Positions 19,739-32,512 of a stretch of DNA of 64,000 nt are shown piece after piece. The notes beneath the pieces are model-generated. The model saw only the letters and a program-made list of their open reading frames with translations. It had not been told where the DNA came from and did no database searches. The position numbers and the translations under genes were made by a program. Origin of the DNA: Prochlorococcus sp. AG-436-C13 (GTDB lineage Bacteria; Cyanobacteriota; Cyanobacteriia; PCC-6307; Cyanobiaceae); NCBI GenBank assembly GCA_003212695.1, contig QCPC01000001.1, positions 1 through 64,000 on the forward strand. Reading direction: 5' to 3'. Numbering within the stretch: the first letter of the stretch is position 1; each line of letters starts with the position of its first letter.

Positions 19739-19810
19739 AATTTCTTTTTAAGCGAAAAAGGCGCTATTCCCCATGAACACTACATGGAGGTCACTTAATA
19801 TGTACGAAAT

Positions 19811-19828
19811 AGTTAAAGGTCTTTATCT
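19811..19828 (-). promoter_or_regulatory. Conserved pcb upstream element, copy 2
   Basis: + strand AGTTAAAGGTCTTTATCT, one mismatch from copy 1, with the same TAAAG-GT-CTTTA dyad, 72 bp before the pcb start. The DNA towards the gene also resembles the other copies (TATTTCGTACATAT). Confidence 0.7.
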
Positions 19829-19916
19829 AAGAGAAATAAAAAAACATTTTTCAACATGCAACGAGATGAGATTTTCACTGCTCTTTGTTTTTATCTATAG
19901 GGAAATTTTCAATAAC

Positions 19917-20080
19917 ACCAAGATTCATTTCTTGAACTCTTTTACTCAAATCCTTTTTTGGCAACTATTACGGTAGGAGGCTTTAACCCCCTTGCAGCTA
20001 CTTTTGGAGTAATCACTTTTATTCAGGTTAACCAATTTATTTACTATGGTTTCGATGCAAACGATCCATCTAAAGACTGA
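19917..20080 (+). pseudogene. Degenerate copy of the Pcb-linked small protein
   Basis: Two frames together recall the 55-70-residue family. One frame reads KIHFLNSFTQI, comparable to THLLDFATQL; a different frame then reads GGFNPLAATFGVITFIQVNQF followed by NDPSKD and a stop. The second part aligns well with copy 1 (GGF, FG, IQV-QF, NDP). No ATG lies at the expected start and the frames are out of register, so this is a frameshifted remnant. A short protein could still start at an internal TTG. It is divergent from pcb copy 2 exactly as the intact copy is from pcb copy 1. Confidence 0.65.
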
Positions 20081-20388
20081 TTTCTTCTAAAAGAAAAGAA
20101 AAAGATTTGTTTTTTAAAGCAAACAAAAGCCTTGCCTCATGGTGAGTCTTTTTGCTTGAAAGAATTTCTAAAAAACAATTTTTTAAAAGCGCATTTTTCT
20201 TTCTCATCCCTAAGAGGTGTAAGAATTAAAGCTAGTCCAAATCTCATAACCAAATTTCCGAAGAAATTTCCAGGCTTTACAAATGTAGTGTCATTTTTGA
20301 TAGCTTCAGGAGCGCGCAAAAATTGATTGAAGAAAAAAAATATGTTTAGAGAGAGCAATTAAGCTCATTTTTATTGATTTGTCCTTTT
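20081..20388. other. Spacer where a fourth pcb may once have stood
   Basis: This stretch lies on the pcb side of an orphan upstream element but holds no pcb sequence. A minus-strand ORF of 73 codons (20137-20358) with a TTG start contains a hydrophobic part (FGNLVMRFGLALILTPLRDEKEK) that I cannot place, and its complement is open on the + strand as well. Either may be chance. No terminator stronger than a 4-bp stem was seen. Confidence 0.4.
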
Positions 20389-20406
20389 AGTTAAAGGTCT
20401 TTATTT
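20389..20406 (-). promoter_or_regulatory. Conserved pcb upstream element, orphan copy 3
   Basis: + strand AGTTAAAGGTCTTTATTT, identical over all 18 bases to copy 1 and in the same orientation, but no pcb gene follows on its left. It lies 118 bp before the small-protein gene at 20524, so it either survives from a deleted pcb or serves the rightward small gene. Confidence 0.65.
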
Positions 20407-20523
20407 GTTTGTCAATGTAAGTAGAAATTTAAAATCTCCTGTAAAGCTGATGTAAAGTCAATGAACACGGGTTTGGCAATGTGGCCACCTGCGTTATCTA
20501 TAAACAACCTGCAAACCTCATCA

Positions 20524-20718
20524 ATGATTGATCCAACTCACTTACTTGATTTTGCCACGCAATTACCTCACCCTTCTGACATTGGAATAATTAAGCCCTC
20601 TGGCGGGTTTAATTTTGTGGCAGCACTATGCGGATTAGGTGCATTTTTCGGCGCTTCACAATTCTTTTACTATTCTGATGATTCAAAAAGAATTGATCCT
20701 TGGGCCAAAAGAGATTGA
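20524..20718 (+). CDS. Pcb-linked small membrane protein, copy 2
   Basis: 64 residues, MIDPTHLLDFATQLPHPSD, then a K-P-S-G-G-F hinge, one span (about 31-48, VAALCGLGAFFGASQFF) and a charged tail (SDDSKRIDPWAKRD). The first 80 or so bases are almost identical to those of the next gene, indicating a recent tandem duplication. The frame is open 63 nt further upstream to an ATG at 20461, but the family alignment favours this ATG. Function unknown. Confidence 0.87.
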   Translation: MIDPTHLLDFATQLPHPSDIGIIKPSGGFNFVAALCGLGAFFGASQFFYYSDDSKRIDPWAKRD

Positions 20719-20865
20719 TTTTTAGATTTAAAGAGAATTTAAGAAAAACACTTAAACTTCTTCGATCATCTAAATTTCCATCAAATGCTTATTCAAAGTC
20801 ATCAAATCATCAATGACTTAGATAAGCCAACCAAATATTCATAAACAAATTTCAATTAAAACGAA

Positions 20866-21033
20866 ATGATTGATCCAACTCACTTACTTGATTTCGCCAC
20901 GCAATTACCCCACCCTTCTGACATTGGAATTATCAAGCCATCAGGAGGCTTCAATTTAGGAGCAGCTCTTGCAGGCTTGGGAGCTTTTTTTGGAGCTTCA
21001 CAATTCTTTTATTATGCAAATGCAAAAGACTGA
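20866..21033 (+). CDS. Pcb-linked small membrane protein, copy 3
   Basis: 55 residues, too short for common ORF cut-offs but clearly coding because its first 33 residues match copy 2 at the protein level with silent differences in DNA. The span reads LGAALAGLGAFFGASQFFYY and the tail is trimmed to ANAKD. It follows copy 2 by about 150 bp on the same strand and converges on pcb copy 3. Function unknown; likely a thylakoid single-span protein by context. Confidence 0.87.
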   Translation: MIDPTHLLDFATQLPHPSDIGIIKPSGGFNLGAALAGLGAFFGASQFFYYANAKD

Positions 21034-22522: not shown

Positions 22523-22701
22523 AAGGGTTCTACTATAATTAACAATTAAATAGCAATTAAAAAAAGAAAAAAAAGGAAACATATTTTTATCTAAAGAAGC
22601 AATTAATTCGCTCAGCAGGAAAAGAAAATAGAAATCCTTGCAAAAGATACTTTGCAAACCTTTACATGTCGTGTAACATAGCTTTACATTTTCTTTCCTC
22701 C

Positions 22702-22811
22702 GTGAAGCCAGAAGCTGAAAATTTAATGGCTGGCTCTCAATGATTGGCTTTGTTGCAGCCTTTGGTGCCTATGCAACAACTGGCCAAATAATTCTTCCTG
22801 GCATTTTCTAA
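22702..22811 (+). pseudogene. hli: High-light-inducible protein gene with frameshift
   Basis: Hli proteins are single-span chlorophyll-binding relatives of plant LHC proteins that protect photosystems. Frame 1 reads VKPEAENL from a GTG; the -1 frame continues NGWLSMIGFVAAFGAYATTG and ends LPGIF-stop, the Hli core. The switch falls at A-AAT-TTA (22719-22725), so the product would read AENL-NGW if ribosomes slipped by -1. The simpler reading is loss of one A and a pseudogene. An intact hli follows 10 bp later. No convincing ribosome-binding site precedes the GTG. Confidence 0.7.
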
Positions 22812-22820
22812 TCAAACCCA

Positions 22821-23033
22821 ATGACTTCTTCTTCTTCTGAATCACAAATAACCACCGAATCTGGAAATCGTCAAAATATTTTTCCGATAGAAGCTGAACC
22901 TGAACTAATAGAAAACTATTCTGGATATATGGAAGATGCAGAAAAAGCAAATGGACGCTGGGCAATGATTGGATTTATATCTTTAATAGGTTCTTACTTA
23001 ATAACTGGTCAAATTATACCTGGTTTTTTCTAA
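22821..23033 (+). CDS. hli: High-light-inducible protein
   Basis: 70 residues: a hydrophilic Ser/Glu-rich N-terminus, then the Hli chlorophyll-binding span EKANGRWAMIGFISLIGSYLITGQIIPGFF (positions about 41-70), with the ExxNGRxAMIGF motif whose Glu, Asn and Arg ligate chlorophyll and pair helices. It lies directly behind the frameshifted hli copy. Stress-induced expression is a family property, not visible here. Confidence 0.93.
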   Translation: MTSSSSESQITTESGNRQNIFPIEAEPELIENYSGYMEDAEKANGRWAMIGFISLIGSYLITGQIIPGFF

Positions 23034-31861: not shown

Positions 31862-32080
31862 AACCTATTCTGATTTAAGTTTTAAAGTGTAGGATAAACA
31901 AGTCGAGATTCAGAATATAAATCGTAAATTACCTATAATGTCTTATTGATTTATTGAGAAATAACTAGCTATATTTGCAATCGCCAAAATCGTTTAAAAA
32001 AATTAAATTTGTACTAATTATAAAAATATCCACAGTTTTAACACTTAGCCATTAAAGTCTAAGAGATTTAAACTAAAAAA

Positions 32081-32403
32081 TTGCTAAAAAAAGACGAAAA
32101 GAAGGCTATTACAAGGCTTGCATTACTAAGTGTAGGCTGGGGCGTAGGTCTTGATAGATTCTATGAAGGCAGAAACAAAGATGGAATACTTTCCTTTCTA
32201 TTCTTGGATGGACATTGATTTTTGGAAGTCTTCTTTATCTATCTCCATGTAATGGATATGACTATAACGAAGGAGTAAAAACCTACTCTGATATGAGTTT
32301 TAAAGCTCTTTCAATTTTTCCTCTTGGGTTTGGTACATACGGAATAATATTAGTTATCCGCAAAGTATTTAAACTTCTTAGATCTTTTGAATCTGCAGAG
32401 TAA
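32081..32403 (+). pseudogene. TM2-type membrane protein gene with frameshift
   Basis: From a TTG, the first frame reads LKKDEKKAITRLALLSVGWG, then V-G-L-D-R-F-Y-E-G-R-N-K-D-G-I-L-S-F-L-F, typical of a TM2 domain (GxDRFYxG), and stops at 32216-32218. The -1 frame continues seamlessly with LGWTLIFGSLLYLSPCNGY and a further span to 32403. One lost base near 32203-32210 explains both halves. Unlike the hli case, no canonical slippery heptamer lies at the switch. A sequencing error must be excluded before it is called a pseudogene. Confidence 0.7.
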
Positions 32404-32512
32404 AAAAGCAAATAATAGTAATCTTTTGATTTTCAAGCTCAACAAAGATTATTAGCTTATTTTTTAGGTTATATTTAACTATTAATCTAATTAAATATAA
32501 ATTAGGAGAGAT

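Follow-up and report, generated by a model that had tools for sequence, protein, structure and literature searches.

A one-base frame break in the first of two tandem hli genes of a Prochlorococcus genome, probably a recent pseudogene

In Prochlorococcus sp. AG-436-C13, the first of two tandem high-light-inducible genes (hli1) is divided between two reading frames, and the switch falls on an A_AAT_TTA heptamer. From the window (the whole 64,000-nt stretch of DNA that was analysed) and its comparison with related genomes, we conclude that hli1 is probably an ordinary frameshifted copy, a recent pseudogene, and that programmed frameshifting is unlikely. We put at roughly 0.64 the probability that a real one-base deletion occurred recently in a dispensable copy, with the loss tolerated through the intact second gene (hli2) and other copies.

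The frame break in hli1

The 5' part of hli1 (22702–22743, plus strand, as are all window features described here) starts with GTG at 22702–22704, where relatives have ATG, GTG or TTG. It continues in the 0 frame as AAG CCA GAA GCT GAA AAT TTA ATG GCT GGC TCT CAA TGA, encoding VKPEAENLMAGSQ, which contains VKPEAENL, with the stop at 22741–22743. Beyond the heptamer, the remainder of the gene lies in the −1 frame. This 3' part (22725–22811) reads NGWLSMIGFVAAFGAYATTGQIILPGIF (NGWLSMIGF...LPGIF) from the AAT at 22725, with zero stops in the 28 codons past the break before TAA at 22809–22811, and carries one extra codon (Leu) ahead of PGIF. A sequence-only reading of this DNA had proposed that the two frames meet exactly at an in-phase A_AAT_TTA (22719–22725), and the sequence and its translations confirm this. 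The Hli single-helix motif E..NG...M.G and the TGQIIPG end are complete solely when both frames are joined, with the extra Leu inside the end motif. By itself, the 28-residue −1-frame tail gave no Pfam match. The second gene, hli2 (22821–23033), is intact, encodes 70 residues and is conserved in relatives, with a match to PF00504 (E 0.0027) that is below the curated cut-off.

Relatives carry hli1 in one frame

We aligned the window with ten syntenic relatives, and in all of them the stretch is in a single frame. The commonest form is AEKF-NGW (7 of 10). Lys-Phe is spelled AAA TTT in seven relatives, after GAA in four and after GAG in three, the latter including the sister genome AG-363-C02 (G010); the remaining three have AAA TTC, AAG ATT and AGA TTC. 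In the window, the sequence GAAAATTT is one base short just before the Lys-Phe codons, and the deficit can be placed at GAAAA (22717–22721), where relatives have GAAAAA or GAGAAA before TTT. These comparisons back the one-base deletion that the sequence-only reading had taken as its default. That reading also held that a relative with one more A would count against programmed frameshifting. Other species do have such an A-run of five (5 of 10 relatives), but, given GAG AAA in the sister, either that G or an A of GAA AAA may be what the window lacks. An ancestral GAG AAA, the sister's spelling, would mean that the base was not lost by slippage in a homopolymer.

An exact-pattern search of 400 family genomes found the shortened pattern in three, of which the window's alone is hli. 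The other two do not read on as Hli in either frame, and hence no further shortened hli was seen among exact matches in this family sample. The intact pattern was found in 68 of the 400, although the shortened pattern is the narrower one and the two counts are not comparable as rates. In viral contigs, eight stretches match the shortened pattern, and all eight belong to genes other than hli. We also examined 49 of 80 loci, requiring at least 45% identity for the upstream stretch and leaving out 31 weaker loci. In 34 of the 49, an Hli1-like stretch lies at most 600 nt upstream of hli2, and every one of these aligns in a single frame, whereas the other 15 lack such a stretch; many of the 49 are hli loci other than the window's. 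No published account of such an hli frameshift or loss was found in the available portions of the literature on hli pseudogenes, gene loss and frameshift, and the accessible part of PMC10504305 has nothing on hli loss.

The heptamer and downstream structure

The A_AAU_UUA heptamer is the −1 frameshift site of Rous sarcoma virus. As evidence for frameshifting in hli1 it is weak. A −1 shift at X_XXY_YYZ reads XXX YYY, and so AAA TTT in the new frame necessarily appears as A_AAT_TT in the old one; the heptamer thus follows from ordinary Lys-Phe codons and a missing base. We counted in-frame heptamers of the form X_XXY_YYZ (Y = A or T) in 661 mechanical open frames, each 100 aa or longer, taken from 796 kb of this genome. 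There are 1614 in 208,078 codon positions, and 113 of these are A_AAT_TTA. The product of slippage would be AENL-NGW. This had been described as near the family consensus; however, slippage does not give the commonest form in relatives, and AENLNGW is the poorer fit.

The structure that stimulates −1 frameshifting usually lies about 5–9 nt downstream of the slippery site. In hli1, the predicted hairpin (22744–22786) begins 18 nt 3' of the heptamer, and the folding energy is not exceptional: z is −0.21 for 22726–22790 (matched or bettered by 75 of 200 shuffles), −1.31 for 22730–22800 (by 20 of 200) and −0.63 over the full gene (by 53 of 200). Hence hairpin folding revealed no stand-out structure of the kind that the sequence-only reading suggested looking for downstream.

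Graded loss of hli1 and remaining copies

We searched 14 genomes of the genus, the window's own included, and 13 of these hold the pcb–hli2 locus, with the syntenic order pcb, small gene, hli1, hli2; the locus was not matched in G009, which is 54% complete. Among the 13, hli1 is intact in nine (G001, G002, G003, G005, G006, G007, G008, G011 and G012). It is frameshifted in the window, eroded in AG-363-C02, an apparent relic in AG-436-M02 (G004) and absent from AG-439-M18 (G013). In AG-363-C02, the Asn and Trp of FNGW are changed to Ser and Cys, giving FSGC, and with its stop codon lost the hli1 frame stays open into hli2, where the contig breaks off before hli2 is complete. This leaves an open frame of 106 codons (L008 1559–1876 / L036 2881–3198), Hli-like and with two helices, the first of which has FSGC. 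In AG-436-M02, the sequence after the upstream repeat aligns to intact hli1 with a score of 58, compared to a maximum of 38 among shuffles (0 of 300 as good), which suggests a relic. For AG-439-M18, the alignment does not support an hli1 relic, as its score of 28 was reached by 33 of 300 shuffles.

In the pcb gene tree, which was rooted at its midpoint for drawing only, the window genome and AG-363-C02 are sisters (99/98), a further split adds AG-439-M18 (81/87), and AG-436-M02 lies elsewhere. It follows that the three grouped genomes have each lost or altered hli1 in a different way, and the loss in AG-436-M02 looks separate from theirs. On a small scale, the locus shows the loss of a single hli copy in graded form across related Prochlorococcus genomes.

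The window genome has nine Hli-like places in total, counting both window genes. Three intact close paralogues, two on contig C10 and one on contig C22, are 100, 97 and 91% identical to the query, and one of them sits in a second hli1–hli2 pair. For the remaining codons of the window's hli1, pN/pS is 0.137, compared to 0.074–0.137 for the nine intact relatives and 0.223 for AG-363-C02, values that rest on about 33 codons and large synonymous divergence (mean pS 0.69). These codons look still constrained, which fits either a very recent deletion or an error. Decay beyond the indel, the extra codon and a few replacements is hardly visible.

Upstream elements

Upstream of hli1 is a direct repeat, TTTGCA-AACC-TTTACA (22651–22666), which we take to be HLR1-like, the fit to the HLR1 consensus having been judged by eye. 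The first unit is TTTGCA in the window (22651–22656) and TTTACA in 10 of 10 aligned relatives, and TTTACA-nnnn-TTTACA is found upstream in 9 of 10. TAACAT (22674–22679), 17 nt after the first repeat, is a putative −10 element; relatives have TAATAT (6 of 10), TAACAT (2 of 10) or TAATAA (2 of 10) at this place, and a promoter scan did not report TAACAT at 22674–22679 as a −10 element. In the one relic locus, that of AG-436-M02 (L038 1420–1587), no usable hli1 is left, whereas the HLR1-like repeat is preserved before the surviving, intact hli2, as expected if the repeat drives hli2. The HLR1 element is bound by RpaB, according to the available text of PMC6331805.

Frame breaks elsewhere in the assembly

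The window assembly comprises 1.55 Mb in 38 contigs, with 79.4% completeness. A survey of this genome for frame breaks found 5 of 325 ortholog-like genes (267 kb aligned) to be spread over more than one frame. Two of the five were kept as real by eye, one in a Psb28-like and one in a TM2-like gene. The Psb28-like gene (contig C3 of the window genome, 116760–117130, in L213) goes out of frame at an eight-T run near 116.87 kb and is one open frame in G001; the one-base change in the T-run is possibly a homopolymer error or a mutation. In the gene for the TM2-like small membrane protein (window 32080–32410), the frame breaks close to a short stretch duplicated in tandem (CTTTCCTTTC). The other three breaks were dropped: in one, both pieces span the same part of the query, as judged from coordinates only; another is a gene pair that forms one frame in the reference; and the third lies in a PsaK-like region, where the reference frame is itself doubtful. 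Several PsaK-like pieces stand in a row at 19773–21033 of the window, and no start of its own is apparent for the piece near 19958. In a control survey of 800 kb of G002, 12 of 605 genes were multi-frame; in 11 of these the pieces fall on the same part of the query, as those of tandem paralogues would, and 1 is collinear. A gap of this size, 2 of 325 against no more than about 1 of 605, gives no grounds for describing the window assembly as error-prone.

Discussion

Our leading explanation is that a one-base deletion hit the Glu-Lys codons just 5' of Phe-Asn-Gly-Trp in hli1. If the cell really lacks the base, ribosomes starting at the GTG at 22702 would make a 13-residue peptide and halt at the TGA, and no Hli protein carrying the pigment-binding motif would come from the frameshifted gene. 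The heptamer itself would then have emerged automatically, once AAA TTT came to be read one base off. Redundancy is the likely reason why the loss was tolerated, in that hli2 and further copies are intact and the nearest relatives have eroded or lost the same copy. With intact one-frame relatives on the one hand and a disabling indel on the other, hli1 would qualify as a frameshift pseudogene, provided that the base is indeed absent from the cell.

The main rival is that the base was dropped in error when DNA for a single-cell-type assembly was amplified, sequenced or assembled, with the gene intact in the cell; we regard this as possible, if rather unlikely. The contig number and completeness resemble those of several relatives that are single-cell genomes by name, and the T-run change in the Psb28-like gene belongs to the same genome. 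The apparent constraint on the remaining hli1 codons is also in line with an error. Benchmarks of a single-cell workflow average 3.0 indels per 100 kbp (PMC6122165), and we infer that the window assembly was made by this workflow. Frame breaks judged real, however, are few. Moreover, the break sits in the very copy whose counterparts in the nearest relatives are eroded or gone, which is what inclines us towards a real deletion, and an ancestral GAG AAA would speak against a slip in a homopolymer.

Readings in which the heptamer has a role fare much worse. Programmed −1 frameshifting at A_AAT_TTA, with full-length Hli produced as a regulated fraction, would make sense of a heptamer in phase, of the conservation of both hli1 parts in sequence, and of a predicted hairpin downstream. 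Yet in-frame heptamers of this kind are common in the genome, and this one follows from AAA TTT; the hairpin is at 18 nt, not at about 5–9 nt; and no use is evident for the 13 residues made in the 0 frame. Neither the frame change nor the site is conserved, as the 10 syntenic relatives and the 34 loci are all in one frame. The suggestion that such a frameshift might be conserved in relatives therefore found no support, the copy being lost or eroded in the nearest of them, and relatives, pattern searches, folding and heptamer background led us to reject programmed frameshifting as the leading reading. We consider it very unlikely. Just as improbable, in our estimation, is a combination in which the deletion is real and accidental low-level −1 slippage at the heptamer it created supplies some Hli1, keeping the downstream codons selected while the copy disappears. 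At ATGA (22740–22743), a −1-frame ATG overlaps the 0-frame stop. Ribosomes could in principle re-initiate there and produce a small peptide, MIGFVAAFGAYATTGQIILPGIF; alternatively, the short frame could be a leader that couples translation to hli2. However, this ATG is the Met of the Hli motif in 11 of 11 aligned rows, such that the overlap needs no selection, and the product would be without the E..NGW part; we give either possibility the least credence of all.

The window's hli1 is mostly a cautionary case. A one-base deletion directly ahead of AAA TTT always leaves a perfect slippery heptamer of the retroviral type in the old frame, and hence such heptamers at frame breaks in A+T-rich genomes are little evidence by themselves.

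With the hli (Hlip; high-light-inducible, small CAB-like) genes of Prochlorococcus, the locus shares the motif AEKFNGW..M.GF...TTGQIIPGIF, the tandem pair and the HLR1-like upstream repeat, but the window's first gene is out of frame and has the extra Leu codon. Programmed −1 sites of the X_XXY_YYZ type, such as those of Rous sarcoma virus and dnaX, are similar in heptamer form and phase. The bacterial dnaX site is A_AAA_AAG, as given in the available part of PMC5009743. Unlike these, the hli1 site is not conserved, folding at the usual spacing does not rise above background, and the 0-frame product has no known use. The gene chlD, of the chlorophyll pathway, is likewise related to photosynthesis and spread over two frames, yet its frameshift signal is termed highly conserved in the accessible text of PMC9227772, whereas the signal of hli1 is found in a single genome. 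Compared to frameshift pseudogenes formed by one-base indels, hli1 in the window appears too recent for clear decay of its remaining codons, but it has in common with them the one-base deficit, the intact paralogues, and the erosion or loss of the same copy in relatives.
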